Made by a program: the position numbers and the translations under genes. 59,780 bases of DNA, from contig DATAOI010000071.1 of NCBI GenBank assembly GCA_036265815.1, positions 1-59,780 of the forward strand, in the 5' to 3' direction. The number at the start of each line of letters is the position of its first letter. The stretch's first letter is position 1. This DNA is from Gemmatimonadales bacterium (GTDB lineage: Bacteria > Gemmatimonadota > Gemmatimonadetes > Gemmatimonadales > GWC2-71-9). The notes under the pieces are model-generated. The model did no database searches and was not told the origin of the DNA. It saw only the letters and a program-made list of their open reading frames with translations. This document shows, one piece after another, positions 5,251-24,733 of this stretch.

Positions 5251-6921
5251 TCAGTCACAGTCTGGCCGGGCTCCCGCGGCGCCCGCCGGCGCCCGCGCGG
5301 CGCACTCCTCCACCGCCAGCGCGAGCGCGACGCCGTTGGACCAGCCGAACCCGTCCTGGGTGGGATACTCGCCTCCGCCGGCCGGCCGGCTCAGGTCCAC
5401 CACGTCGTACTTCTCGGTCATCTTGCGGGCCGAGCGATAGGTGCGGCGATTGAGTCCGAGCCAGCGCTCACGGGCCAGATCGGCCAGGTCCCCACGGCCA
5501 TATCGCCGGACCCCCTCGATCGTGAGCCACTCCAGCGGTGGCCAGCCATTGGGCGCGTCCCATTGCTGCCCGGAGGCAACCAGGGTGGTGACGAACCCGC
5601 CCGGCTTGAGGAAGTCGTGCTCGAGGCGCGCCGCCACGCCCCGACCCTGGTCCGGCGTCGCCAGGCCGAAGTAGAGGGGGACCACGGCGGCCAGGGTCGG
5701 CCGGTCGGTGACTCGCTCGCCCGTGCGCCAGCGGACATCGTAGAAGAACCCGGTCTCCGGGTCGTACGCCGCAGCCAGGAGCGCCCGACGGCGGGCCTCC
5801 GCCGCCTGGTCGAATCGTGCGGCCATCTGGGCGTCGCCCGTCCGCCCGCGGAGCCGCCTGAGCGCGGCAATGGTCCGCTCGGTGTGGTACAGCAGGCTGT
5901 TCAGGTCCACCGGCGCCAGCTCGGTCGTCTCCAGCGTGCGGAGGTCCTTCGGATCGCGCATCCAGCGGCTGGAGAAGTCCCATCCGCTCTCGGCCGACGC
6001 GCGAAGGTTACGGTAGAGCGCCGTTCGGCGTGCCTCCGGCACCGACTGGGCGAGGGTGAAATCCTCACGGTACGACTCGGGTCGCGGCTCGGGAATGTCG
6101 TCGAAGTAGCGGTTGAGCAGCGTCCCATCGCGCAGTCTGATGACCCGGCGGTTGGCCGTCCCGGGCACCAGCCGGCTGCCCCCCTCCATCCAGAACGCGT
6201 ACTCCGCCTCCAGCGCATCGAGGTAGATCAACGCCCTGGTACTGTCGGTTGCTTGGGCGTAGAGCCCGACCATGGCGCCAAAGTACGGCGGCTGGCTCCG
6301 GCCGAGATAGTAGGTCCGATTGCCGTTCGGAATGTGGCCGACCGTCCGGACCAGGTGAGCGAAGTTGTCCAGCATGCTGCGCACCAGATCCGTCCGTCCG
6401 CTCTCGACCAACCCGAGCATGGTGAAGTACGAATCCCAGTAGTAGACCTCGCGGAACCGGCCGCCCGGCACCACGTACGGATTCGGCAGCGGGATGAGCG
6501 ACGAATAGGGCTGGGGAGCGTCCGCTGGCCGGGTGAGCACGGGCCACAGCCGCCGGATGTGCTGCTCCATCGAGCTCGACGTATCGGCCGCGACGCCTTC
6601 ACCCGCCGGTCGGGGCGGCTCGAAGTGCTGGGCGACAAACGCTCGGAGGTCAAACCCCGGGCGCTCGCGCTGCCCGGCGTAGAGCCGCGCGATCTCCGAA
6701 GGCGCCTCCAGCGCGCGGGAATCGACGAACGTCTTGGAGTCGGGAAAGAGTCCTGCCATCTGCACGTCATGAAACAGCGGCCCGAGATCGTGGGCTGGAT
6801 CGTACTGCGAGGCGGGCGCCGCCGCCGGTGCTACACCCGGCGCGGCCGGCGGCGCGGTACGCTGACAGCCGGCACCGGCGAGGGCCAGCGTGAAGGCGAG
6901 GAGCAGGCGGCGGAAGATCAT
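5251..6921 (-). CDS. treA: Periplasmic lipoprotein trehalase (GH37)
   Basis: Hydrolyses alpha,alpha-trehalose to two glucose. It has 556 residues, close to the family norm. A lipoprotein signal ends LALAGAGC (Cys19), so the enzyme is membrane-anchored outside the cytoplasm. GH37 signature 1 is at residues 152-163 ([12 protein letters not shown]) and signature 2 at about 452-461 ([10 protein letters not shown]). The acid Asp segment [10 protein letters not shown] and the base Glu segment [17 protein letters not shown] are intact. The ATG overlaps the EIIBC stop by 4 bp (ATGA), so the trehalase is translationally coupled to a glucose permease. The coupling implies extracytoplasmic hydrolysis followed by PTS import of glucose, unlike the classic TreB/TreC route where trehalose itself is phosphorylated. 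Confidence 0.93.
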
Positions 6922-8717
6922 GGCGGGGAGAGCGCAGCCGGAGCGCGCAGCTCGTCCTCGATCGCTCCGGCCACTGCGGAGGCGCGGTCACCGAGCACCA
7001 GGTGCAACACCGACTCGGAGACCCGCAGCACGCCGGCGGCTCCTGCCGTCTCCAGAGCGCCCTCGTTCACCGCTCCGCGTCGGAGCTCGACCCGCACACG
7101 GGTGATCGCACGGCACTCGACCGCCGCGATATTCTCGGGGCCGCCGAGCGCGGCGATCAGCGCCTCCGCGAGCTGGCGGTCCTCCGAGGTGAACCGGGCG
7201 CTCACCTCGTCGGCAGGCGCAGGCGCAGGCGCAGGCGTGCCCGCGGCCCGGGCAGGTCCGACCGCCGGCGCCCCGCCGGCCCGCAGGTACTCATCCATAT
7301 CGGTCTTCAGGTTCTCCGAGCGGGTGCCGAAGATGGCCTGCATCCCGCCGCCGACCTGCAGTACGCCGGCCGCGCCCAGCGCCCGCAACGCGTCCGCGCT
7401 GGCCAGAGAGACATCGTTCAGCTCGAGCCGGAGGCGCGTGATGCACGCATCCAGACTCTTGATGTTTGCCCCGCCACCGAACGCGGCCACCAGCCGGGCG
7501 GCCATCGAGTCGCCCGTCTCCACTGCGGCGGCGGCCGTCGCGTCTTCCACTTCCCGGCCCGGCGTCTTGAGGTTGAACCGAACGATGAGGGTGCGGAACA
7601 GTGCGTAGTACATCACCGCCCAGAGCGGGCCCAGCACCAGAAGCCACAGCCCGCGCGAGGAGTGCGGAAAGAGCACGATGTAGTCGATGAGGCCGTGCGA
7701 AAAGGTCGTGCTGTGGCGGATCCCCAGCTCGATCGCGGTAAAGTAGGCGAGTCCGGCCAGCAGCGCGTGCAGGGCATAGAGCAGCGGCGCCACGAACAGG
7801 AAGGAGAACTCGATCGGCTCGGTGATGCCGGTGAGAAACGAGGTCAGGGCGGCGGAGACCATGATGCCGCCGACCTTCGCGCGATTCTCCGGCCGCGCGG
7901 TGCGCCAGATCGCCAGCGCGGCCGCGGGCAAGCCCCACATCTTGAACAGGTAGCCCCCGGCGAGGTTGCCCGCGGTGGGGTCCCCGGCCGTGAAGCGGTA
8001 GATCTCGCCCCGGATGATCTTGCCGCTGACGGGGTCGACGTATTGGCCGACCTCGAAGAAGAAGGGCACGTTCCAGATGTGATGCAGACCGAAGGGGATC
8101 AGCGAGCGCTCGACCACGCCATAGAGCGCGAAGGCGAGCGCCGGGTTCTCCGATGCGGCCCAGTGGGAGAAGTGATCGATCGCCCGGCCGATGGGCGGCC
8201 AGACCAGGCTCAACGCGATGCCGGCGAACACGGCGGCAAACGCCGTGAGAATCGGCACCGAGCGTTTGCCCGCGAAGAACCCCAGATACGCCGGGAGCTG
8301 GACCCGGTAGAATCGGTTGAACAGGATCGCGGCGACGGCGCCGATCAGGATGCCGCCGAACACCCCCGTCTCGATGGATGGGATGCCCATGATAGTGCGC
8401 GGCTCGTAGCCGACCAGCGGCGCCATCACCCCCATGGTCGCCACCATCACCGCGAACCCCACGACGGCGGCGAGCGCGGCGACCCCATCGTTGCCGGTGA
8501 GACCCAGGGCCACGCCGATCGCGAAGATGAGCGGCAGGTTGCCGAACACCGCGCCGCCCGCCTGCGCCATCACGTTGGACACGACCGGCGGCAGCCAGGT
8601 GAACTTGGCACTCCCGACGCCGAGCAGAATGCCCGCTACCGGCAGCACCGAGACCGGCAGCATCAGCGACTTGCCGATCTTCTGCAGCCAGCCGAAAGCC
8701 GTGCGTCCCAGTCTCAT
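6918..8717 (-). CDS. ptsG: PTS glucose-type permease EIIBC with two tandem EIIB domains
   Basis: A 599-residue inner-membrane permease that phosphorylates sugar during import. The EIIC part (residues ~1-390) is strikingly PtsG-like: [66 protein letters not shown] and [11 protein letters not shown]. The first EIIB domain keeps the phosphorylated Cys in [12 protein letters not shown] (codon 7443-7445). An Ala/Pro linker encoded by tandem gcaggc hexamers (about 7211-7233) leads to a second EIIB-like domain. There the Cys position reads [11 protein letters not shown], so the Cys is displaced two residues and replaced by Ala. The real start is ATG 8717, which overlaps the EI stop by 4 bp; a longer open frame upstream is a shadow of ptsI. 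The downstream trehalase also overlaps by 4 bp. Confidence 0.93.
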
Positions 8718-11263
8718 GCCGGCGCTCCCGCATGCCGCCCGGCCACCAGGGCCCGCACCTCCGCCCCATCGGCCGCCTCGAGAGCCTGCAGCGCCGTGAC
8801 CCGGCACTCCTCCAGCGAAAGGGCGCGCACCTGGGCCTTCACCGCGGGCACCAGGGGCACAGCCGCGCTCAGCTCGTCCACGCCCAGTCCCACCAGCACG
8901 GGCACTGCCTGCGGATCGCCGGCGGCCGCGCCGCAGACGCCGACCCACCGGCCATGCGCGTGCGCGCCCGCGACGGTCCGCTCGATCAGGCGCAGTACCG
9001 CCGGATGCAGCGCGTCGACCTGGGCCGCGAGGCCCGGATGGGTGCGATCCATCGCCAGTGTGTACTGGGTCAGATCGTTGGTCCCGACCGAGAAGAAATC
9101 CGCCTCCTGCGCGAAGTGGTCGGCCAGGAGCGCGGCGGACGCGGTCTCGATCATGATGCCGATCGGCACCGGCGGCGCCCCGAGGGTGAGACGCTGGAGC
9201 TCCACCAGCTCGCGCGCGGCACGCCACTCGGCCACGGTCGAGATCATGGGGAACATCAGGGCCAGCCTGCCGGCGCGTGACGCCCGCAGGATGGCCCGTA
9301 CCTGGACGGCGAAGACCTCGGGCCGGTTCAGCAGGAGGCGGATGCCGCGCTCGCCGAGGAACGGATTCGCCTCGGCGCTGACGGGCAGGTAGGACAGGGG
9401 CTTGTCGCCGCCCACATCCAGTGCCCGCACGACGACCAGGCGCTCGGGTCCGACTTCGCGCAGGATCGCTTCGTAGGCGGCGGCCTGCTCGTCTTCGGTC
9501 GGTGCTGTGTGGCGGTCCAGAAACAGGAACTCGGAGCGCAGCAGACCGACGCCTTCGCCTCCCACCGCGGCCACCCGGCGCGCCTCGTCCAGGCTACCGA
9601 CGTTGGCGCCGACCTCGACGCGATGGCCGTCGCTGGTGACCGCCGGCTGCCCGGCGACGGCGAGCTCCGCCGCGCGCACCCGCGCGGTGGAGGCCTGGCG
9701 CCGAGCGATCTCCGCTTCCTCCGCCGGCGACGGGTCGAGCCGGAGGGTGCCGGCGTCGCCGTCGAGCGCCACACGGGCGCCCGATGGAAGTTCGAGCACG
9801 CGTGGGTCGATGCCGGCGACCGCGGGGACGCCGAGCCCCCGGGCCAGGATGGCGACGTGGGAGGTGGCGCTGCCCGTGGTGGTACAGAAGCCGCGCACCC
9901 GGGTGCGATCCAGCGTCGCCGCATCGGAAGGCGCCAGGTCCTCGGCCACGACGATCGACTCCGCGGGAATTTCAGGCAGTGCGCCGTCGCGACCGACGAG
10001 CAGATGGAGCACGCGCCGGCCCACGTCGCGGAGGTCGGCGGCGCGGCCCGCCAGCAGCTCTGTGCGGAGCGCGAGCAGCCGGTCCGACTGCTCCAGGTAC
10101 GCTTTCCGCCACGCGTAGGCCGCTGTGGCTCCCTCCCGGATCTGCTCGGCGGCGGCGTCCAGCAGAGCGGGGTCTTCGAGCAGCTCCTGATGCGCGGCGA
10201 AGATCGCGCCCCGGTCGGCATCGCCTTCGGCGGCGAGCCGCCGCTCGAGCACCTTCAGCTGACGCTGCGCGTCCGCGATCGCGGTGTCGAGCGCACGCCG
10301 CTCGTGGCTGGGATCCGCGGCCCGCTCCTGCGGCACCTCGTCCGTGTGGCGCAGGTGGAACACGCGGCCGATCGCGACGCCGGGCGAGGCGGGCACACCG
10401 GCCAGCGGACCGCCAGGCGCTCCGCTGGGGCGCACCGGGGCCGCGGATGGCGCGGGGACCCCGACAGGCCGCTTCCGATCGGTCACTTGGGCAGCGGGGG
10501 ACGCCGGGGAAAGTGCCTGCACCACGGCATCCACCGCGGCAGCGGCGTCCTCACCCCGCGCTACGACGGTCACCGTGTCGCCCCGGCAGACCTCGAGCAT
10601 CATGATGGCCACGACGCTGCGGGCGTTGGCTTCGCGGCCCTGCTTGACCAGCCGAACGTCGGAGGCAAAACGGCGAGCCGCCGCGGCGACGGTCGCGGCG
10701 GGGCGCGCATGCAACCCATCTTCGATCGCGATTACAATCGGGGCCGAGTCGACCGAGCGTCCCTCCTCCCGGGCGGCCGGCTCAGCCCCGACAGTCGCGA
10801 GGCGCACCTCGAGGAGCGGATCCCGCGCTCGGGCGACCCGTCCGGTGCGTGGCTGCAGCGCTGCGACGCGATCCATGCTCACCACCAGGACCGGCGTGAT
10901 GAGGCTCTTGGCATGCCTGGCCACGTAGTCCGCATCGAAGGTCAGGAGCAGATCGCCCGCCCGCACCTCGTCACCTGCCTTGACGCGCGGCTCGAAGCCC
11001 TGCCCGTTCAGCGCCACGCTGTCGAGCCCGACGTGAATGAGGACCTCGAGGCCCGACACCGAAAGCGTGAGTGCGTGGCCCGCGCGATGCACATGACGCA
11101 CCCGCGCATCGCATGGCGCCACGAGCCGCTGGTCGAGCGGGTCGAGCGCGATGCCATCCCCGGCGAGCCGTCGCGCGAACGCGGGATCGGGCACTCGCTC
11201 GAGCGGCACAATGACGCCGGACAACGGTGCCAGCAGGGTCAGGCTGGTCGAGGGGGAGGTCAT
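8714..11263 (-). CDS. ptsI: Fused PTS phosphorelay protein EIIA(Glc)-HPr-Enzyme I
   Basis: An 849-residue cytoplasmic multiphosphoryl transfer protein joining three PTS components. EIIA-Glc (residues 1-130) has the phospho-His in LIHVGLD (His77) and the helper His at VRHVH. HPr (~174-252) has [10 protein letters not shown] (His185) and a Ser equivalent to Ser46 in [10 protein letters not shown] (Ser216). Enzyme I (~287-849) has the swivelling-domain His469 in [11 protein letters not shown], the PEP-binding barrel segment [17 protein letters not shown], and Cys777 in [10 protein letters not shown]. With the downstream EIIBC this makes a complete phosphorelay from PEP to sugar in two genes. It is the first gene of the minus-strand operon, divergent from deoC across 88 bp. 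Confidence 0.95.
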
Positions 11264-11351: not shown

Positions 11352-12071
11352 ATGTGTGATGCCGCCATGGAAGTCTCCCGGTTTGCCAAGTTGTTCGATC
11401 ACTCGATCGTCCGCCCCGACGCCACCCGCGCCGACGTGGCGCGATTTGCCGAGACGGCCGCCCGATTGGGGACCGCCACCCTCACCGTGCAGCCGCACTA
11501 CGTCCGGTTCGCCCGCGGCGTGCTGCGCGGCTCCGGCGTCCTCGTGGGCACGGTAGTCGGGTTCCCGCACGGGAACGAGACGCCTTCGATGAAGGACTAC
11601 CAGGTCCGGGAGGTCCTCGGGCTGGGCGCCCAGGAGATCGACATGGTGATGAACATCCCCGCCCTCAAGAACGGCGAGAGGCAGTTGTTCATCCGGGATG
11701 TGGCCGGGGTCGTCCAGGCCGCCGAGGGCCGGCGGGTGAAGGTCATCCTCGAGACCTGCTACCTAACGACAGAGGAGAAGCAACGCGCCTGCGAGTGGAT
11801 CATCGAGGCTGGGGCCCACTTCGTGAAAACATCCACCGCGTATGCCGACGGCGGGGCCACGCTGGACGACGTCCGCCTCATGTACCAGGTGGTGAAGGGC
11901 CGATGCCTGGTGAAGGCCGCGGGAGGCATCCGGGAGATCCCCGAAGTGCTGGCCTACCTGGAGGCCGGGGCGCGCCGGTTCGGCTCGACGCGGACCGAAC
12001 AGTTCGTGCAGGCGTTTCAGGAGCTGTCGCCGGGGGAACGCGCGGGCTTTGCGCCGTATCTGCCTGATTGA
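11352..12071 (+). CDS. deoC: Deoxyribose-phosphate aldolase (DERA, DeoC family)
   Basis: Cleaves 2-deoxy-D-ribose 5-phosphate to glyceraldehyde 3-phosphate and acetaldehyde by Schiff-base chemistry. It is a class I aldolase TIM barrel of 239 residues, usual for the family. Key segments are VVGFPHG, EIDMVMNIPALKNG, the Schiff-base Lys159 in HFVKTSTAYADGGAT, and the second Lys in CLVKAAGGIR. The family's common KTSTGF reads KTSTAY here. An internal ATG at 11367 (MEVSRF) is an alternative start; neither has a strong ribosome site. It is divergent from the PTS genes and not next to other nucleoside-salvage genes, so it may serve general deoxynucleoside or sugar-phosphate catabolism. Confidence 0.9.
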   Translation: MCDAAMEVSRFAKLFDHSIVRPDATRADVARFAETAARLGTATLTVQPHYVRFARGVLRGSGVLVGTVVGFPHGNETPSMKDYQVREVLGLGAQEIDMVMNIPALKNGERQLFIRDVAGVVQAAEGRRVKVILETCYLTTEEKQRACEWIIEAGAHFVKTSTAYADGGATLDDVRLMYQVVKGRCLVKAAGGIREIPEVLAYLEAGARRFGSTRTEQFVQAFQELSPGERAGFAPYLPD

Positions 12072-12159: not shown

Positions 12160-12480
12160 CTAATGCGAGCCGACCATGGACTCCTTGGTCACCAGCACCT
12201 CGCCCTCGATGATCTCGGGAGTTCCCAGCTGATCTTTCAGCGGATCGTTGCGGACGAATTCCGCGGACCGCCGGGTGGACTCCTTCGCCCCACTCTGGCT
12301 CTCGAAGATGGAGATGCTGACCAGGTCCTTCTCCCCGCGGAGCACATAATAACAGTGGAATCCCGGGACTTCCTGGGCGATCGGCAGGAATGTCTGCTCG
12401 ATCCGCTGCTGAAGCTCCTGGACCTTGTTCTTGGCGAGCGGCCCGCCCTTGGGGGTATACCGCCGAATCGTTGCGTACAT
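12160..12480 (-). CDS. ABM-like dimeric alpha/beta-barrel protein
   Basis: A 106-residue protein of the antibiotic-biosynthesis-monooxygenase-like ferredoxin fold: MYATIRRY opening, then IAQEVPGFHCYYVLRGEKDLVSISIFES and an acidic C-terminal strand. Such proteins are small oxidative or heme-degrading enzymes or uncharacterised stress proteins; no catalytic residues can be assigned. The start at 12480 has GGAGG 8-9 nt upstream; an in-frame start at 12519 would fall inside the upstream terminator and is rejected. A sigma70-type promoter and a terminator-bearing leader lie directly upstream. It is convergent with deoC. Confidence 0.75.
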   Translation of the reverse strand: MYATIRRYTPKGGPLAKNKVQELQQRIEQTFLPIAQEVPGFHCYYVLRGEKDLVSISIFESQSGAKESTRRSAEFVRNDPLKDQLGTPEIIEGEVLVTKESMVGSH

Positions 12481-12516: not shown

Positions 12517-12622
12517 CAAAAAGCCGGCCGAGCAGTACCTCGCTCAGCCGGTTTCGCGATTGGCTCCACCCGGTACCTGCGCGACCTCCACTCCTGCACC
12601 GGGCTTCTCTGCTTCTGAGAGT
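12517..12622 (-). ncRNA. Candidate structured leader RNA or small RNA ending in an intrinsic terminator
   Basis: About 105 nt predicted to be transcribed between the promoter at 12629-12656 and the terminator at 12518-12551, just before the ABM-like gene. On the plus strand the segments CCCGGT (12569-12574), CCACTC (12588-12593), ACCGGG (12598-12603) and GAGTGG (12619-12624) pair in interleaved order, which defines an H-type pseudoknot. I could not match it to a riboswitch consensus I know. It may be a regulated leader of the ABM-like gene or a free-standing small RNA. Confidence 0.5.
12518..12551 (-). terminator. Intrinsic terminator in the leader of the ABM-like gene
   Basis: On the minus strand a 10-bp stem (CCGGCTGAGC with GCTCGGCCGG, one G-U pair) and an 8-nt loop are followed by CTTTTTGGTTTT. 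It ends about 38 nt before the ATG at 12480, leaving the ribosome site downstream. Its placement inside a 5' leader, rather than after a gene, suggests attenuation. Confidence 0.75.
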
Positions 12623-12628
12623 GGCCCC

Positions 12629-12656
12629 AGTATAGGGGCTGTTCTCGGACCGTCAA
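12629..12656 (-). promoter_or_regulatory. Sigma70-type promoter for the ABM-like leader
   Basis: TTGACG (12651-12656) and TATACT (12629-12634) are separated by 16 bp, near the housekeeping consensus. Transcription would begin near 12622 and run leftward through the pseudoknot-capable leader. Confidence 0.7.
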
Positions 12657-12672
12657 GATGGCCGGACCCGGC

Positions 12673-12713
12673 AAGCAAAAAGGGGGGCGGCCGAAGCCGC
12701 CCCCCTTTTGCTT
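12673..12713 (-). terminator. Strong intrinsic terminator after the outer-membrane barrel gene
   Basis: A near-perfect inverted repeat with a CGAA loop (12692-12695): arms AAGCAAAAAGGGGGGCGGC and GCCGCCCCCCTTTTGCTT. It lies 11 bp after the minus-strand stop at 12725. The A/T outer arms make it usable in both directions. Confidence 0.88.
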
Positions 12714-12724
12714 ACCCCAATCGC

Positions 12725-13529: not shown

Positions 13530-15032
13530 TCATCCGATCTTCTTCGCCTCGGTGCGGATCGAGACGTAGTTCAGCGTGGGCAGGATGTTCGCGTTCGCCG
13601 CCTTCCCGGCAAGCTCCTTGGCCCTGGCCTTGTCGCCCTTGCCCTGATACGCCAACGCCGTCGAGTAGACCACGTAGGGGTCCTGCTGGCTGGCCTGTCC
13701 CAGCTCGCTGATGGCCTGATCGAACTGTTTCTCCGCCAGCGCGATGGTGCCCGCCAGCTCGTGCGCCTGCCGGATCCGGAACGAGTTGTGCCTCGCCTCG
13801 GCACCCTTCAGATACTCGGCGGCCTCCGACTTGGCCGTCGCCAGATCCTTCCTGGCCAGCGCGACCCGCCCGCCGAAATAGTGGCCGGCCAGCTTGGTGT
13901 CCTCCTTCACGTCGGCCGACTGGCTGGACGCCATGATCAGATCGACCGCGCGGGTGAAGTGCTTCTGCGCCTCGTCCGATTTCCAGGCGTCGAGCATGAT
14001 GTTTCCCATCGCGACCTCGTCAGCCGACATGTTGGCCGTGTCGGCGATCTTGAGGGCCACGGCGTGCTCCTGTTGCATCGCCTCCATCGCCTTGGCGGTC
14101 TTTCCGGCGTCGACATAGATCAGCGCCTGGGTGAATTTGGCCAAACGCCGGTCGCCGTCATCCCGGGCGGCATCGAAGAGCTTCTGCGCTTCCGCGACCG
14201 CCTGGTCGTGCTTGCCCTGATACATGAGATTCGAGGCGATCGCGAAGTACGAGTTGCTGAAGTGGGGATCGATCGAGAGCGCCTTCCGGTACTGCGCGAT
14301 CGACTCGTCGAACCGCCCCGTCTTCATCAGCAGCTCGGCATAGGAGTCGTACGGATTGGGATCGTCCGGGACCAGCTCGATGTACTTCTTGAAGGCCTTC
14401 TCCGCGTCGGCGTACTTCTCCAGCGGCCGGTAGGCGTAGCCCAGGGTGTTGTACGCCGGCGAGAAACTCGGGTTGATCGCGATCGACTGCTTCAGCTCAT
14501 CGATGGCTTTCTCGAACTCCTGCTGGCCGAGATACTGCCCGGCCAGAGTGAAGTGCGCGCGCTCGTCGCGGGGATACTTGGCCGCCAGCTCCTCCGCGTA
14601 GGCCAGCGCCTTGGTGGGGTCCGCATCGCTCCCCGCCTTCAGTGCGAGGATCAGCAACCGCTCTCCTTCGGAGACTTTTTCCGAGAGGGCGACCGCCTCA
14701 TTCAGATGCTGCAAAAAGTCCTTGGCGGTGGCAGAGCTCAGGGCGAGGCTGTAGTGCGCGAGAGCGAACGAGGGATCCTTCGCGACGGCCTGCCCGAACA
14801 GCTGGCGGGCATCGTGCAGCTTGAGCTGGTCGGCCAGGGCTCGACCCTTGGTATAGAGCGTCCGCGCCTCATCGGAGGCGGTGGTGATCGCGATCTTTTC
14901 GCTGGTGGTGGGGGTAGCGGCGCCGACGGACGCGGTTTCGGTATCTGGCTTCTTCGTGTCGCAGCCGGCGAGGAGGGCGAGCAGCCCGCAGGCGCTGAGC
15001 CAGACCGGTGGCGAGGACAATGAGCGTTTCAC
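13530..15032 (-). CDS. TPR-repeat lipoprotein
   Basis: A 500-residue lipoprotein: signal ending LLALLAGC, then at least seven tetratricopeptide repeats, for example FALAHYSLALSSA, FSPAYNTLGYAYRPLEKYADAEKAF, PYDSYAELLMKTGRFDESIAQYRKAL and HFSNSYFAIASNLMYQGK. TPRs bind other proteins, so this is a likely envelope scaffold rather than an enzyme. The start is GTG 15032, supported by AGGAGG with a 7-nt spacer. It is monocistronic, divergent from the HAD phosphatase. No partner can be named from context. Confidence 0.85.
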   Translation of the reverse strand: MKRSLSSPPVWLSACGLLALLAGCDTKKPDTETASVGAATPTTSEKIAITTASDEARTLYTKGRALADQLKLHDARQLFGQAVAKDPSFALAHYSLALSSATAKDFLQHLNEAVALSEKVSEGERLLILALKAGSDADPTKALAYAEELAAKYPRDERAHFTLAGQYLGQQEFEKAIDELKQSIAINPSFSPAYNTLGYAYRPLEKYADAEKAFKKYIELVPDDPNPYDSYAELLMKTGRFDESIAQYRKALSIDPHFSNSYFAIASNLMYQGKHDQAVAEAQKLFDAARDDGDRRLAKFTQALIYVDAGKTAKAMEAMQQEHAVALKIADTANMSADEVAMGNIMLDAWKSDEAQKHFTRAVDLIMASSQSADVKEDTKLAGHYFGGRVALARKDLATAKSEAAEYLKGAEARHNSFRIRQAHELAGTIALAEKQFDQAISELGQASQQDPYVVYSTALAYQGKGDKARAKELAGKAANANILPTLNYVSIRTEAKKIG

Positions 15033-16108: not shown

Positions 16109-19100
16109 TCATCCACGCGCTCCAGGTGGTGGTGGCGAATCTGATCGTGGCGGGCGGGGCGCTCTACTCGTCGCTCGCACGGTCACCGCGTGACGCTGGC
16201 CATCATCCACCAGCGGAATCCCGCCTCCCGGCGTCACCCGCCCATCGATAGCCACTTCGGTCACGCCCGCCTCCGTGGCTTCCTCCTGGCGCACCACGAT
16301 GACATAGAGGCTCTGGCCATGGCGGTACTCGATGGTGTACTCCCGCCACGCGGCCGGCGCGCGGGGCTCGATGAACAGGGTATCGCCCCGCTTGGTAAAG
16401 CCCAGGATCCCTTCCAGCCCGACCCGGTACATCCAGCTCGCTGAGCCGGTGTACCAGGTCCAGCCGCCGCGGCCCAGCTGGCCTTCCGCCGTGTACACGT
16501 CCGCGGCCACAACGTAGGGCTCCACCTTGTAGGTCTCGACCTCCTCCGGCGTTTGCGCATGGGTCAGCGGGTTGAGCATCTGAAAGAGCTCGAACGCCCG
16601 GTCCCCCTTTCCCCTGAGCGCGGTGGCCAGGACCGCCCAGAGCGCGGCGTGGGTGTATTGCGCGCCGTTCTCCCGGACGCCGGGCAGATAACCCTTGATG
16701 TAGCCCGGGTCCTGGGCCGTGGTGTCGAAGGGCGGCGTGAGCAGCATCAGCAGCCGCCCGTCCTCCCGTACCAGGTACCTCTCCAGCGAGTCCATGGCTT
16801 GCACCTGCCGGGCCGGATCGCCCGCGCCCGAGATGACGCTCCAGCTCTGGGCGATGGAGTCGATGCGACACTCGTCGCTGCCCAGCGATCCTAGCGGCGT
16901 GCCATCGTCGAAGTACGCCCGACGATACCAGGCCCCGTCCCACCCGTGCTTCTCCACCGCCGCGAGGTAATCATCGGCCTGCCGCCGGAGCTCGGCGGCC
17001 ACCGCGACTTCGCCCCGCGTCTCACTCCGTTCGGCGAAAGATCTGAGCGTGGCGATGAGGAACCAGGCCAGCCATACGCTCTCCCCCCGGCCCTCGACTC
17101 CCACCCGGTTCATGCCGTCGTTCCAGTCGCCGGTCCCGATCAACGGCAGCCCGTGGCCGCCGGTGGTACACGCCCGCCGGAGGGCGCGGAGGCAGTGCTG
17201 ATACACGCTGGCGCGCTCCGGGCTGACCTCGGGCAGATCGTAGACCTCATGCTCCTCCGGCCCCAGGGCCCGCATGCTGAGGAAGGGAACGTACTCGTCG
17301 AGCACCGAGGCGTCACCGGTGACCCGGACGTAGTGATCGACCACGTACGGCAGCCAGGCCAGGTCGTCGGAGATTCGGGTCCGCACCCCGCGCCCGCTCT
17401 GCGGGTGCCACCAATGCTGCACGTCGCCCTCCACGAACTGGCGGCCAGCCGCGCGCAGGATGTGCTCCCGCGCGAGCGCCGGCTCCGCGTAGACGAATGC
17501 CATCACGTCCTGCAGCTGATCGCGGAAGCCGTAGGCGCCGCTGCTCTGGTAGATCGCCGAGCGGGCCCACATGCGGCAGGCGAGCGCCTGGTAGAGGGTC
17601 CACCGGTTCAGCATCGCGTCGAAGGAGGGCTCCGGCGTCCGGACGGTCACGACCGAGAGGCGCTCCCGCCACCGGTCGCCGGCCCGGACGAGAGTGGCAC
17701 GGGCGCGGGGCACGTCGCGGTACTCGGCGAGCGCCGCCTGTGCGGCGGCCCGATCGGTGCCGGCCCCGGTGAGGATCACGATCTCGCGGGTTTCCCACGG
17801 CGCCAGCTCGATCAGGCACTGCAGCGCCGCGCAGGGATCGTGACCGGCGCCCGTCGTGCCGCGGAGCGCCTCGCCCCGGAGGGCCGCCGGGTCGCTCACG
17901 GCGCCGTTTCGGCCGAGAAACTCTCGCCGGTTGCCGGAGTAGGCGAGGACCGGCTCGGTGAACGCGTGGAACGCCACCTGGCCGGCGAACTGCGGGTCGA
18001 AGAAGTTCTGCGCCAGGATGGCGCCATGCTCGGAGTCGAACGCGGTGCACACCTGGTGCTGGGTATGCTCCCGGAGCACGCCCAGCGTCCATTCCACGTA
18101 GCTCGTCAGCGTCAGCCGCCGGGCGCGCGACTCCTGGTTGGTCACCCGCAACAGCGCGAGCTTGACCGGCGCGTCATCCGCCATGCCCAGCGTGAGCCGG
18201 GTGCCGATGCCGCCGCGCTGATGCTCGAATGACGACGATCCCGCGCCGTGGCGCACGGTGTACGCCCCGCCGGAGCGGACCGGGCCGGGTGTGGGGCACC
18301 ACAGCTCGCCGTTTTCCATGTCCTGCAGGTACAGCACCTCGCCGGGCGGATCGCTCACCGGATCGTTGTGCCAGGGCGTGAGCCGGAAGAAGTAGCTGTT
18401 CACGGTCCAGCAGAAGCCGCCGCCTCGCTCAGTGATCACGAACCCGCCATGCGGGGTTGCGATCACGTTGGCCCAGGGCGCGGGCGGCAGCCGGTCGCCG
18501 ACGATGCTGATCTCGTACTCGCCGTCGGGCCCGAGCTGGCCGAACCCGTTGAGCGATGCCACCGGCGGGAGCTCTCCCTCGCGGGTCGGCCGTGCGGTCC
18601 GGGTCGAGGGGCCCGCGCCCAGATGGGAGGTCAGCAGCCCGGGCAGCGCCCCGATCCTCCGCACCACCTTCGCCACCGCGGAGTCGCTCCGGGCCGGCGC
18701 GCGGGGAGGGACGTTGGAGCTGTCCCGCTGCTCCACCGGCGGCTCCACCGGCGCCGGCGCCATGGCCGCGCTCAGCACTCGGCCAAGCGGTCGGCCGTCG
18801 CAGGGCACGTGCACCCGGGCCGTGGCCCGGAGCATCAGGAGATCCTCGGCACCCAGCAGGTCCCGGCGCCGGATGAACACCCCGCCCGAGCGGTCGATGG
18901 CGCCGGGATCGCTCAGCGCATAGGCGGCGGCCGTGATCCGGTCGTCCAGATCCTGGATGTAGCTGGATGCGCTCGCGCTGACCACCACGAGGTCCACCAT
19001 CATCCCGCGGCGGTGCCAGTACCGGTGTGCCGCCAGCAGTTGCCGGAGCGTCGGCAGGCCCTCGGCGTTCTCGATGGTGGCAAGCAGGATGGGCCAGTCG

Positions 19101-22100
19101 CCCGAGATCCCATGGGCCCACAGAAGCGGCTGGGAGCCCTGGTTTCGGCGCAGCTCGCTCTGCGGCGCACGCAGGGCCGGCGAGCCGTAGAGCAGGAGCC
19201 CGGCGATCTCCTGAAACACCGCCGCATCTATCGGAGAGATGTTGAGCTCGCGGAGCTCCACCTGGCTGGAGGTCCAGGCCAGGTCGAGCGCCCGCTGCGC
19301 CGCGTGCGGATCATGGTAGCGATCGGCCAGCTCGAACGCCCGCTCGCGGCTGGTGGCCACGAGCGTCGTGTACGCGACCGAGGCGGACTGGCCCGGGTCC
19401 AGCCTGACCCTCGTGCGGAGCGCGAAGATCGGATCCAGCACCGGGCCGGTCGTGCCCGACAGCGCCCCGTCGGTTTCCAGGGCGACCGGGTCGCGGGTGG
19501 TGCGGCCCCGGCCGAGGAAGCGGGCCCGATCGGTCTCGCAACTGACCGCCCCGACCCGCTCCTTGCCGCTGTCGACCACGTGCACGCACCAGAGCTCACG
19601 CTCCCCGGCCGAGCGCGGCCGCCGGGTGGCGGTGATCGCGCTACACCAGTCGTGCCACTCGGTCTCGACGAACAGGTTACCGAACGCGGGGTGGATCCGG
19701 TCCGCCTCCGGCGGGCCGAGCACGATCTCGCCGTAGCTGGTGAGCTCGAGCTCCCGGACCTGATCGCCGTTGTTGGTCACCGTCACCCGCCGCACCTCGG
19801 CCGAGTCCTCGGGAACCACCGCGATCTCGGTGCGGGTCTCGATCTCGCCGTCGAAGCGCTCGAAGGTGACCCGGTCGGTGGCCAGGAGGGCGCGATATCG
19901 GTCGGCCGGGGCGCACACCGGCTGATGCGCCGCCGACCAGAGGCGGCCGGTGGCAGGATCCTTGACGTAGCAGAACTGCCCGGTGGCGTCGCTGGTCCCA
20001 TCCGAGCGCCAACGAGTCACCGCGAGCCCCTCGAAGCGACTGTAGCCCGAGCCGCCGTGACTGACCATGATGGTGTACGGCAGGTGGCCCAGCAGGGCGA
20101 CATGCGGCTGCGGCGTGTCCACGGTATCGAACTGACGTACGGTCGGCCGGTAGAGATCCGCTTCGGGTCTCGCTTGGTCCAGCCGATCGTCCTGCGGTTC
20201 CTGCAGTACCAGCCTGCGGGGGATCCGCTCGTGCAGCAACAGCTCCGCCGAGCGCACCACCGGGTCGGCGTGAAACCGGCGCTGCCACACGTGGGCGGTC
20301 ATGGCGTTGGTCAGGGCCACCAGTCCCATTCCCAGATGATGCGCCATGTAGGTGTGGACCAAGGCATAGCGGCGAGCGGGATCGGGACGGGTATAGTCCA
20401 GTGCGTCGCGGAAACCGTAGGGGCCGAGGGCGCCCTTGCTCTCCAGCAGCGTGAGGTTGGCGAGCGCTCGCTGGGGGTCGATCATCATGGCCAGCACTGT
20501 GGCGTACGGCGCCACCACCAGCTCGCGTCCCAGGCCGCGCTTGAGCGCCAGATCGGGCACGCCGAAGGCGCGGTACTGATAGGTGTGGTGCCGGTCGCGC
20601 AGGTTGTACGCGCTCTCGCTAACGCCCCACGGGACACCGCGCTCGCCGCCATAAGCGACGTGCCGGCTCACGGCGCCCTGGCAGGTCTGCGCCAGCAGCG
20701 TATAGGGGAACGAGCGCATGACCAGCATCGGCATCAGATACTCGAACATGCTCCCGCTCCACGACACCAGCGCCGGCGCTCCCGCCGCGTAGGTCAGGGT
20801 GCGGCCGAGATGGAACCAGTGGTCCACCGGCGCGTCGTCCTTGGCCACGGCGAGGAAGCTCGCCAGCCGCGCCTCGGAGGCGAGCAGGTCGTAGTTGGAG
20901 CTGTCCAGGGCGTGCGCGCTCTGCTGGAACCCGATGGCGAACAGCTTCCGCTTCTCATCGAAGAGGCAGCGGAAATCCATCCCCATGGCGTAATCCCGGG
21001 CCCGCTCGGCGATCACCTCCAGCCGCGAGATCAGCTGCGCGGCCTCTGGCGAGTGGGGCGCGAGCTCCCGCAGGCTGGCGAAGGGCCTGGCATCGAGCCT
21101 CGCCGTCCAGTCGCAGTGCGTCGTGATCAGCCTGCGGGTCCAGGAGATCCAGTCGAGCGCCGGCTCGACCAGGTCGCGCGGCAGCCCGACCCCGCCCAGC
21201 ACCGCTGCCGCGCGCTCCAGCGGCTCGGCCACGCGGGAGAGGGCCGCCGTGGAGGCCGGCTCCCGCCGGGAGGCGACCAGAGCGGCGCGCGCGGCACGAA
21301 GCGGCTCCCGGGCGCCCGACGCCTGGGGCACCGCCGAGGTCCGTTCCTCGACCAGGGCCAGCGCCGTATCGAGGGCGCGCCAGATGCGCGAGTCGAACGC
21401 CGAGTCGTCCGGCAGCTCCAGACAGGCCTGCCTCAGCGCGATGAGGTGCCCTGCGAGATTGCCGCTGTCGACGGTGGAGATGTACGCCGGCTCCAGCACG
21501 CTCAGGTCCCGCAGGTCGTACCAGTTGTAGAAGTGTCCTCGGAATCGGCGCATCCCCTCGAGCGAGCGGAGCACCAGCTCCAGACGGCGAACCAGGTCGT
21601 CGAGCGGGATGAAGCCCAGGTCCCAGGCGCTCACGGTGGCCAGCAGCTGGAGACCGATGTTGGTGGGCGACGTGCGCAGGGCCACCACCGGCCCGGGATC
21701 CTCCTGGAAGTTGTCCGGTGCCAGCCACTGGGTCTCAGCGGTGACGAAGCGGTCGAAGAAGTGCCAGTGGAGCAGGGCGTAGCGAAGCGCCTGGCGCCGG
21801 CTGTCGGGCGGCAGCCGGTGCTCCCGGGGCAGCGCGGGCGCGCCCAGGGCGTGAGCCACCGCGGGCGAGACCAGCCACGCCAGCGCCAGCGGGAGCACGG
21901 CGATGCCCCATTGCCAGAGGGGGATCGGCGAGACCGGGCCATGCCCGCTGGCCCGCCCCATCACCAGCAGCAGCACCACGCCGGCGAGTCCCACCGCCGG
22001 CCACATGCTCCGCCAGTAGGTCCGGAACGAGTCCGACATGCCGCGCTCGGTCTGGGAGGCCGTCCGCCACTCCAGCAGGTGGCGCCGGGTCACCAGCAGG

Positions 22101-24733
22101 CGGATCAGGGTGCGGACGATGGCATCGGCGGACACCCACGCCTGGTGCGGCAGGAAGACGATGGCGAGCGTTACCTGCTGGGCGCTGGTAACCGCGTCGC
22201 GTGCCACCGCCGCGTAGTAGGGCCGCCAGGACTTGTCCAGCGGGGGCCGCAGCAGCGCCAGGAGCAGCGACACGATCCAGGGAGCGGCGATCGCGCCGAG
22301 GCCGAGCAGGGTCCAGCGGAGCGCCCCGCCCGGCAGGACGATCCAGCCGGCCAGCAGGAACGCCAGCTGGGCCAGCTCGATCGTGCTGCGTCGGAGGTTA
22401 TCGATGATCTTCCAGCGGGACAGGAGCGAGAGCCGGTTGGGCTCGGCGCCGTCCGGGCCGGGCACCCGGCGCATGAGCCACGGCAGCAGCTGCCAATCGC
22501 CCCGAATCCAGCGGTGCTTGCGGCTGGTGAACGTCAGGTAGCGGGTCGGGTATTCGTCGTAGACGATGACGTCGGTGGCGAGACCGGCCCGGGCGTAGCT
22601 GCCCTCGATCAGGTCGTGGGAGAGCAGGGTGTTCTCCGGGAAGCGTCCGTGGGTCGCCTGCTCGAACGCGTCGACATCGTAGACCCCCTTGCCGGTGAAG
22701 CTCCCCTCGCCATACAGATCCTGGTAGACGTCGGACACCGCCGTGGTGTACGGATCGACCCCCGGATGGCCCGAATGGATGGAGGCGAACACCGACCGGT
22801 GGGCGCTGGGAAGCGACACGCCGACCCGCGGCTGGAGGATGCCGTAGCCGTGCACCACTCGGCCGAGGGCCGGGTCGTAAACCGCGTGATTGAGGGGATG
22901 GGCCAGCGCGCCGACCAGCAGCGGAGCCGCGTCCGGCGGCAGCACGGTGTCGGCGTCCAGCGTGATCACATACCGGACCGCGCGAAGCGGCTCCATGTCT
23001 CCCACCGTCACCAGGAACGCACCCTTGGCGCCGCCCCGGATGAACCGGTTGAACTCGGCCAGCTTTCCCCGTTTTCGCTCCCAGCCCATCCAGACGCCTT
23101 CAGCGGGATTCCATCGCCTCGGCCGATGGAGGAGGTAGAACGCGTCCTCCCGTCCGCCGCCGTAGCGGGCGTTGAGTGCCCGCACGCCGTCGACCGCGGC
23201 CTCGACGATCGCCGCGTCGCCCTCGCGGGTTTCGGCTGGCGCGTCGGTGAAGTCGCTCAGTACGGCGAAATGGAGGTGGGCTTCCCGGTTGGCCAGGAAC
23301 TGGACCTCCAGGTTCTCCAGTGCCTCACGGACCGCGTCCACACTGCCGAACAGCGTCGGGATCACCACGGCGGTGCGGAACTCGGGGGGAACCCCGTGCT
23401 CGTGCAGGTCCAGCTTGGGAAGCGGCCGGGGCGGCAGGAATGCCGTGACCAGCTGGTTCACCAGGTTGACGGCGATGTCGTTGGCGGGGATCAGGCCGAG
23501 GAGGAGGACGGCGACCCAGGCCTGGCGGGCCGGCGGTCCGCCCAGCCACAGCACCGCGGCCAGCGCGCCGAGCGTGGCCGCGAGCACCCCGCCCACGAAC
23601 ACGACGTTGGGATGCTGCCGCACCCAGCGGTCCACCGCCTGGGCAGGTGTCGGGCGATAGCCGGTGATCCTCTCCAGCTCGAGCAGCCCGGGGCCGATCA
23701 GGTAGTAGCCCACGTGTCTCCGCCGCGGTTCTCCCGGATCCGGCTCGCCGGCGGTGCGGGCGCACTGGAGCGCGGCCCGCGCCACGGCCTCCTCCGCGCG
23801 TCCGGTGCGCTTGGCGATGCGCTCCACCTCGTGGCGATATCGATCGCGGGTCGCGAACGTCATCCGAGGGTAGAAGCCGGACGGGTCCTCCCGGAGGATC
23901 GGCTCCATCCGGCTCTGCTCCTCGACGAGCGCGCGCCAGTTCATCCGGGCGATCGCGCGGAGGCTGGTGATGCTGTTGGCCATCCCCACCTGGGTGAGCG
24001 CCAGCCGCTGGGTGGCCCGGACGGTGGCCTCCTCTGCTCCCAGCGCCTCCTCCGCAATCCACTGCTCCAGGCGCACGACGGCGGGAAGCGCGCCGCCCTC
24101 GATGCGGAGCTGCTGCAGGAAGCGGGAGACGAACGTCGGCGTGAGCGGCGGGGGATGAGAGGCGAAGCGGGTGAGCGCCTCGTCGAGAGCGTCGCGGTCG
24201 GTCTCGCCCGCGCGGGCGATCCGCGCGGCGGCGGCATCCGCGGCGGCCAGCTCGTCGAGCCGCAGCACCGCGCGCAGCGCCATACGGCGGACGTTCTCGA
24301 TCAGGCCCAGCCGCAGCATCGCGGGGACGGCCCAGAGCTCGCCGATGGTGAGCGGGGTCGCCCGCTGGAACGCCGCGACGAAGCCGCTCACGTTGTCCAG
24401 GTCGACCCGGCCCTCGCTGTGCGAGATCAGAACGATCGCCAGCTCGTAGACTCGGGGATAGCCGGCCAGCGGTCCGCTCGCCAACTCGGGCAGCTCCCGG
24501 TAGTAGCCTCGAGGCAGGCTCTCCCGGACCTCGCCGACGTGCTCCTGGATGACATGGTAGTTGTCCAGCAGCCATTCGCCGGCGGGCCCGATGTCCTCGC
24601 CTCCATCGGAGGCCGCGGTCAGCCGCGCGTGGGCATCCTCCAGGATTCGGCGGGTCTGGTTGAGCCGCGCCAGCAGGGGCGTGCGCCGACGTCCGGGCCG
24701 CCGGACGCCGGTGAGCCGCTGCTCCGCCGCCAC
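16109..24733 (-). CDS. ndvB: Cyclic beta-1,2-glucan synthase (GT84-GH94, NdvB/ChvB type)
   Basis: A giant inner-membrane enzyme (2874 residues from GTG 24733) that polymerises UDP-glucose into beta-1,2-glucan, trims it by phosphorolysis and cyclises it. The order fits the family: an N-terminal helical region; membrane helices near 375-430, 775-815 and 905-955; a GT84 glycosyltransferase with VVIPTLFGSVD (~458), ITLDADT (~593) and HRWIRGDWQLLPW (~739); a glucoamylase-like domain (FRCLFDEKRKLFAIGFQ, ~1255); carbohydrate-binding/GH94 modules; and the GH94 catalytic Asp in GTGDWNDGMNRVG (~2536). Conserved-looking coding sequence (GPIRGELLGAEHLGERAQ) continues upstream of the GTG in the same frame without any ATG, GTG or TTG. 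The annotated start is therefore probably not the true one. The product should be an osmoprotective periplasmic glucan. Confidence 0.9.
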   Translation of the reverse strand: MAAEQRLTGVRRPGRRRTPLLARLNQTRRILEDAHARLTAASDGGEDIGPAGEWLLDNYHVIQEHVGEVRESLPRGYYRELPELASGPLAGYPRVYELAIVLISHSEGRVDLDNVSGFVAAFQRATPLTIGELWAVPAMLRLGLIENVRRMALRAVLRLDELAAADAAAARIARAGETDRDALDEALTRFASHPPPLTPTFVSRFLQQLRIEGGALPAVVRLEQWIAEEALGAEEATVRATQRLALTQVGMANSITSLRAIARMNWRALVEEQSRMEPILREDPSGFYPRMTFATRDRYRHEVERIAKRTGRAEEAVARAALQCARTAGEPDPGEPRRRHVGYYLIGPGLLELERITGYRPTPAQAVDRWVRQHPNVVFVGGVLAATLGALAAVLWLGGPPARQAWVAVLLLGLIPANDIAVNLVNQLVTAFLPPRPLPKLDLHEHGVPPEFRTAVVIPTLFGSVDAVREALENLEVQFLANREAHLHFAVLSDFTDAPAETREGDAAIVEAAVDGVRALNARYGGGREDAFYLLHRPRRWNPAEGVWMGWERKRGKLAEFNRFIRGGAKGAFLVTVGDMEPLRAVRYVITLDADTVLPPDAAPLLVGALAHPLNHAVYDPALGRVVHGYGILQPRVGVSLPSAHRSVFASIHSGHPGVDPYTTAVSDVYQDLYGEGSFTGKGVYDVDAFEQATHGRFPENTLLSHDLIEGSYARAGLATDVIVYDEYPTRYLTFTSRKHRWIRGDWQLLPWLMRRVPGPDGAEPNRLSLLSRWKIIDNLRRSTIELAQLAFLLAGWIVLPGGALRWTLLGLGAIAAPWIVSLLLALLRPPLDKSWRPYYAAVARDAVTSAQQVTLAIVFLPHQAWVSADAIVRTLIRLLVTRRHLLEWRTASQTERGMSDSFRTYWRSMWPAVGLAGVVLLLVMGRASGHGPVSPIPLWQWGIAVLPLALAWLVSPAVAHALGAPALPREHRLPPDSRRQALRYALLHWHFFDRFVTAETQWLAPDNFQEDPGPVVALRTSPTNIGLQLLATVSAWDLGFIPLDDLVRRLELVLRSLEGMRRFRGHFYNWYDLRDLSVLEPAYISTVDSGNLAGHLIALRQACLELPDDSAFDSRIWRALDTALALVEERTSAVPQASGAREPLRAARAALVASRREPASTAALSRVAEPLERAAAVLGGVGLPRDLVEPALDWISWTRRLITTHCDWTARLDARPFASLRELAPHSPEAAQLISRLEVIAERARDYAMGMDFRCLFDEKRKLFAIGFQQSAHALDSSNYDLLASEARLASFLAVAKDDAPVDHWFHLGRTLTYAAGAPALVSWSGSMFEYLMPMLVMRSFPYTLLAQTCQGAVSRHVAYGGERGVPWGVSESAYNLRDRHHTYQYRAFGVPDLALKRGLGRELVVAPYATVLAMMIDPQRALANLTLLESKGALGPYGFRDALDYTRPDPARRYALVHTYMAHHLGMGLVALTNAMTAHVWQRRFHADPVVRSAELLLHERIPRRLVLQEPQDDRLDQARPEADLYRPTVRQFDTVDTPQPHVALLGHLPYTIMVSHGGSGYSRFEGLAVTRWRSDGTSDATGQFCYVKDPATGRLWSAAHQPVCAPADRYRALLATDRVTFERFDGEIETRTEIAVVPEDSAEVRRVTVTNNGDQVRELELTSYGEIVLGPPEADRIHPAFGNLFVETEWHDWCSAITATRRPRSAGERELWCVHVVDSGKERVGAVSCETDRARFLGRGRTTRDPVALETDGALSGTTGPVLDPIFALRTRVRLDPGQSASVAYTTLVATSRERAFELADRYHDPHAAQRALDLAWTSSQVELRELNISPIDAAVFQEIAGLLLYGSPALRAPQSELRRNQGSQPLLWAHGISGDWPILLATIENAEGLPTLRQLLAAHRYWHRRGMMVDLVVVSASASSYIQDLDDRITAAAYALSDPGAIDRSGGVFIRRRDLLGAEDLLMLRATARVHVPCDGRPLGRVLSAAMAPAPVEPPVEQRDSSNVPPRAPARSDSAVAKVVRRIGALPGLLTSHLGAGPSTRTARPTREGELPPVASLNGFGQLGPDGEYEISIVGDRLPPAPWANVIATPHGGFVITERGGGFCWTVNSYFFRLTPWHNDPVSDPPGEVLYLQDMENGELWCPTPGPVRSGGAYTVRHGAGSSSFEHQRGGIGTRLTLGMADDAPVKLALLRVTNQESRARRLTLTSYVEWTLGVLREHTQHQVCTAFDSEHGAILAQNFFDPQFAGQVAFHAFTEPVLAYSGNRREFLGRNGAVSDPAALRGEALRGTTGAGHDPCAALQCLIELAPWETREIVILTGAGTDRAAAQAALAEYRDVPRARATLVRAGDRWRERLSVVTVRTPEPSFDAMLNRWTLYQALACRMWARSAIYQSSGAYGFRDQLQDVMAFVYAEPALAREHILRAAGRQFVEGDVQHWWHPQSGRGVRTRISDDLAWLPYVVDHYVRVTGDASVLDEYVPFLSMRALGPEEHEVYDLPEVSPERASVYQHCLRALRRACTTGGHGLPLIGTGDWNDGMNRVGVEGRGESVWLAWFLIATLRSFAERSETRGEVAVAAELRRQADDYLAAVEKHGWDGAWYRRAYFDDGTPLGSLGSDECRIDSIAQSWSVISGAGDPARQVQAMDSLERYLVREDGRLLMLLTPPFDTTAQDPGYIKGYLPGVRENGAQYTHAALWAVLATALRGKGDRAFELFQMLNPLTHAQTPEEVETYKVEPYVVAADVYTAEGQLGRGGWTWYTGSASWMYRVGLEGILGFTKRGDTLFIEPRAPAAWREYTIEYRHGQSLYVIVVRQEEATEAGVTEVAIDGRVTPGGGIPLVDDGQRHAVTVRATSRAPRPPRSDSPPPPGARG

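Follow-up and report, generated by a model that had tools for sequence, protein, structure and literature searches.

The leader RNA that precedes a gene for a small ABM-fold protein, within the 59,780 nt of Gemmatimonadales DNA analysed here (the window), is by its sequence another member of a riboswitch family that already has a name, c-di-GMP-II-GAG, and very probably acts on transcription termination as an ON switch. The initial annotation had presented it as a possible new structured RNA, to which no known riboswitch consensus could be matched. Both statements have to be withdrawn, given that the leader lies above the curated cut-off of RF03169, and the candidate "new RNA" is thus resolved by naming it. 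The layout that had been recognised, that of a riboswitch or attenuator ahead of an ABM-like gene, was right, and so were its parts, namely the promoter, the intrinsic terminator, the ribosome site with its 106-residue open reading frame (ORF) and a unit size of about 105 nt. The features of the unit are listed in Table 1.

Table 1. Positions in the window of the riboswitch, its helices, its signals and the predicted target gene.
Feature	Positions	Strand	Basis
c-di-GMP-II-GAG riboswitch aptamer	12537..12625	-	RF03169, 43.1 bits, model 1-86; RF01786, 40.4 bits
P1 5' strand CUCAG, partner 12547-12543	12615..12619	-	99.1% of cells paired; double changes in 3/5 pairs (48 homologues)
P1 3' strand CUGAG, also in terminator 5' arm	12543..12547	-	homologue alignment
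P2 5' strand CCCGGU, partner 12574-12569	12598..12603	-	90.6% of cells paired; double changes in 5/6 pairs
P2 3' strand ACCGGG	12569..12574	-	homologue alignment
Pseudoknot 5' strand GGUCGC, in P2 loop	12581..12586	-	Rfam alignment; 88.9% of cells paired
Pseudoknot 3' strand GCGA-AA-CC	12550..12557	-	inserted AA (12553-12552), equivalent to A69 and A70 among the ligand contacts in PDB 3Q3Z
Sigma-70-type promoter TTGACG-16-TATACT	12629..12656	-	10/12 consensus matches; similar promoter in G005
Intrinsic terminator hairpin, then CTTTTTGGTTTT	12524..12551	-	5' arm 12551-12542; T-run in homologues
ABM-fold protein, 106 aa, sole controlled gene (predicted)	12163..12480	-	Pfam ABM via homologues; AlphaFold2 model; Foldseek

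Family identity and helices of the leader RNA

An Rfam 15 scan of the complete window, a check that the initial annotation had itself proposed, returned RF03169 as the sole match (43.1 bits, with a gathering score of 40; window-wide E = 4e-05), in an alignment that spans the whole model and clears the cut-off by just 3 bits. The sister family, RF01786 (c-di-GMP-II), overlaps the same stretch with 40.4 bits, under its own cut-off of 53.5. The GAG subtype, which is said to go back to Weinberg et al. (2017, PNAS), is kept separate from class II in Rfam and has a divergent consensus. Apart from the full-length match, the leader shares with RF03169 the layout of P1, P2 and pseudoknot and the GAG-type scaffold around GGAGC and GCGA, and differs from it in the pocket, which reads GCGA-AA-CCG here and GCGA-GA-CCG in the family. 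Searches of the rest of the organism's own genome with RF03169, RF01786 or a lineage model (R1) gave no second copy.

Further Rfam matches, to CsrC, mir-373, PrrB_RsmZ, psaA and others, were weak and far under their respective cut-offs, and those at 12670-12720 stem from the C-rich terminator hairpin of the upstream gene. This strong terminator-like hairpin (GGGGGGCGGCTTCGGCCGCCCCCC, then TTTTT; 12670-12716, minus strand) stands at the end of an outer-membrane beta-barrel gene, from which it would insulate the riboswitch unit. A plus-strand reading was rejected, since it is the minus strand that carries the Rfam match, promoter and terminator; the sole folding-energy test, made for the plus strand only, gave an unremarkable fold (z -1.4).

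The helices were assessed in 48 homologous copies gathered from relatives of the same order, Gemmatimonadales, and aligned with MAFFT without structure fitting. Across these copies 93.3% of the aptamer cells are paired, with eight pairs showing changes on both sides, and the covariation score amounts to 0.114, compared with 0.059 in shuffles, none of 500 of which scores as high. When the partners are slid out of register, pairing falls to 33-46%. Compensatory changes, which the initial annotation had named as the thing to look for in homologous leaders, are therefore present, and both P1 and P2 covary. The pairs of the pseudoknot are conserved and show no covariation, one of them being mostly unpaired in relatives; as the pseudoknot is too conserved to covary, its support comes from conservation and from the family model. 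P1, P2 and the P2-loop pseudoknot of RF03169 are in this manner all backed by the homologues. The transcript as predicted would have only a short P1, a point that counts against the riboswitch reading.

Two interleaved 6-bp pairings had originally been combined into a pseudoknot, and they fared differently in the alignment. CCCGGT/ACCGGG stands, as P2 of the Rfam alignment, in which CUCAG/CUGAG is the P1 core and the other pairing has no place. CCACTC (12624-12619) and GAGTGG (12593-12588) are likewise perfect complements in this single sequence, but they pair in only about 30% of homologue cells (79/246), and the 5' end of CCACTC falls no later than the point where transcription probably starts. 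The leader does hold a pseudoknot, formed by other partners (Table 1). A new RNA class built on the two original pairings, for which their perfect complementarity in one sequence would speak, is refuted by the homologue alignment and opposed by the match to RF03169, and its probability is negligible.

Ligand pocket and the base at position 69

In the solved class II RNA (PDB 3Q3Z), the ligand is contacted by A13, A14, U37, G39, U60, A61, C68, A69, A70, C71, C72, G73 and A74 (PMC7288161). Its pocket sequence CAACCG (68-73) aligns with AAACCG in the leader, where the equivalents of A69, A70, C71, C72 and G73 are all present and identical, so that the leader shares these ligand-contact bases with RF01786, as well as its fold and clan. 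None of the 48 copies departs from C71, C72 or G73, and 46 of them have A70. The leader differs from class II, in addition to its score under the family cut-off, in its GC-rich stems, in position 68, where C is replaced by an A that is here paired with U, and in position 74, which is G here and A in 3Q3Z; the changes at 68 and 74 count against the correspondence.

The equivalent of position 69 is A in 41 of the 48 copies, including the window copy, and G in the other seven, as in the Rfam GAG consensus. By our reading of the subtype consensus, and of the name "GAG", G is the base expected at this position, where the window copy has A. Because position 69 is A here, and because the seven copies with G include orthologues of A-type copies, membership is claimed by the Rfam score and not as a subtype of distinct specificity. 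The exchange is seen between the orthologous riboswitches L010 (G69) and L059 (A69), which lie before TPR lipoprotein genes with 80% identical products, and between L005 (A69) and L048 (G69), which precede the same gene and share 86% DNA identity across riboswitch and gene start. Both types even occur within one genome, G345 (G in L048, L061 and L064; A in L059 and L062). The simplest reading of these comparisons suggests that the A69/G69 exchange leaves the ligand unchanged; it is very unlikely that orthologues in front of the same gene truly respond to different cyclic dinucleotides.

The natural ligand of this aptamer fold could nevertheless be another cyclic dinucleotide, such as 3',3'-cGAMP. 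The GAG subtype has a divergent consensus and an Rfam entry separate from class II, and it has reportedly been suggested that its specificity may be altered; in class I riboswitches the preference for a dinucleotide is altered by single base changes. The window copy, however, departs from the GAG consensus at position 69, where it has the A of class II, and orthologues would hardly be expected to differ at a base that determined the ligand. The GGDEF domains of the organism also argue against it: its genome has 12 GGDEF matches, at least five of which retain the canonical Asp of GHxxGD, as canonical diguanylate cyclases do, whereas the Hypr enzymes that make cGAMP have Ser or Thr in its place. 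As the exchange at position 69 seems neutral and at least five of the GGDEF domains keep their Asp, c-di-GMP is the likely natural ligand, and only a slight chance is left to a different one.

Terminator, predicted switching and predicted target gene

The promoter has a counterpart (TTGACA ... TATAGT) in the corresponding position ahead of the aptamer in a congener, G005; sites of this quality are expected 0.3 times in shuffled sequence, and transcription would start near 12622. Downstream, the 5' arm of the terminator (12551-12542) includes the whole 3' strand of P1 (12547-12543) and the last two bases of the pseudoknot (12551-12550), and these shared bases couple the expression platform to the aptamer. 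The homologues retain the terminator helix, with 91.7% of its cells paired, and 45 of the 48 have at least five T within 10 bases past the hairpin. By nearest-neighbour energies, a model that leaves out pseudoknot and ligand, P2 with the terminator reaches -29.4 kcal/mol and the aptamer helices without the pseudoknot -10.3 kcal/mol, which makes the terminator the stronger structure in the ligand-free state.

As the aptamer supplies its 3' strand as the 5' arm of the terminator, a bound ligand and termination would be mutually exclusive, and an ON switch is predicted from this anatomy. The nascent RNA would first fold P2. In the presence of bound c-di-GMP, formation of the pseudoknot in the P2 loop and of the short P1 would occupy the 5' arm, blocking the terminator, so that RNA polymerase would read through into the ABM gene; in the absence of ligand, the 10-bp terminator would win and transcription would stop at about 105 nt. 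The class II riboswitches of Clostridioides difficile are ON switches, and in one of them, Cdi-2-4 (pilA1), the ligand prevents formation of an intrinsic terminator (PMC6366702). The likeness lies in this mode of action, with the polarity being predicted for the leader described here; the C. difficile switch belongs to a different phylum and governs type IV pili, not an ABM-fold protein.

The ORF begins after a ribosome site, GGAGG, and comprises 106 codons. The next gene, DeoC-like (11352-12068), is convergent, which leaves the ABM gene alone under the riboswitch. The 106-aa protein itself gave no direct Pfam or PDB sequence match. Among six of its aligned homologues, four match Pfam ABM (PF03992; best 1.7e-05), and an AlphaFold2 model of the protein (pLDDT 84.7) retrieves with Foldseek the ABM-fold structures TT1380, NE2512, SnoaB, YgiN and LsrG (E 3.5e-05). 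The modelled fold is thus that of ABM proteins, a dimeric alpha/beta-barrel family. Cofactor-independent oxygenases and haem degraders are among the proteins with this fold. Elsewhere on the minus strand, the window holds a 2874-codon ORF (16109-24733) that by eye resembles a cyclic beta-glucan synthase (glycosyltransferase and glycoside phosphorylase), and two overlapping ORFs (6918-11263) that by eye resemble a sugar phosphotransferase system, made of an EIIA-HPr-EI fusion and an EIIBC transporter.

Distribution and significance

Only two of the ten genomes of the genus carry the riboswitch, that of the window and G005, where the gene behind it is again the ABM orthologue (59% identity) and the arrangement of promoter and gene is conserved. 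An ABM orthologue in another member of the Gemmatimonadales (L026 in G008) has a promoter and no riboswitch. In a further genome, G013, what comes after the promoter of the ABM orthologue is CCTCAGACGCCAT, and the ribosome site adjoins it (within the 32 bases before position 1501 of L035). This short sequence agrees with the start of the G005 aptamer in 12 of 13 bases, a likeness equalled by 27 of 5000 shuffles, and is suggestive of a riboswitch that has been largely deleted; the deletion, if true, would free the ABM gene from control.

These ABM orthologues without the element make it appear dispensable, and together with the leader's own promoter and strong terminator they would suit an attenuator or a small RNA of about 105 nt that has no ligand control and resembles a riboswitch only as a relic. 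What makes this most improbable is that the pocket bases are conserved amid variable surrounding sequence, and that in two species the ribosome site and gene follow directly after the element. A c-di-GMP-responsive riboswitch is the reading retained here.

In other members of the family, up to seven copies are found per genome, often before genes that start like those of exported proteins or lipoproteins. The downstream genes encode TPR lipoproteins, PAP2, M29-type peptidases, SusD-like, Big_2, PD40, VWA and HSP20 proteins, and at some loci the gene is not immediately adjacent to the riboswitch (HSP20 in L055, for instance). One locus (L006) has a second, degraded aptamer at 1644-1729, about 55 bases past the first (52 bits with model R1), in a tandem c-di-GMP-II arrangement; its P1 is damaged and its pocket reads GCAAGACCG. 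In the window, a TPR lipoprotein (13533-15032, minus strand) is encoded two genes upstream of the riboswitch and is 48% identical to the riboswitch-controlled one of L010; a riboswitch was looked for before this gene, and none was found.

No relevant paper on c-di-GMP riboswitches in this phylum was found in the open-access library searched. The class itself is already known, and the points to keep are the ABM target and the natural exchange of A69 and G69. The pairs L010/L059 and L005/L048 form a clean natural experiment on whether any ligand besides c-di-GMP is sensed by the Rfam GAG subtype. An ABM-fold protein, in turn, is added to the apparent targets of c-di-GMP riboswitches: in this organism, a small enzyme-like protein of this fold is probably switched on when cyclic di-GMP is abundant, and it may serve the high-c-di-GMP state, that is, a sessile, biofilm-type way of life.
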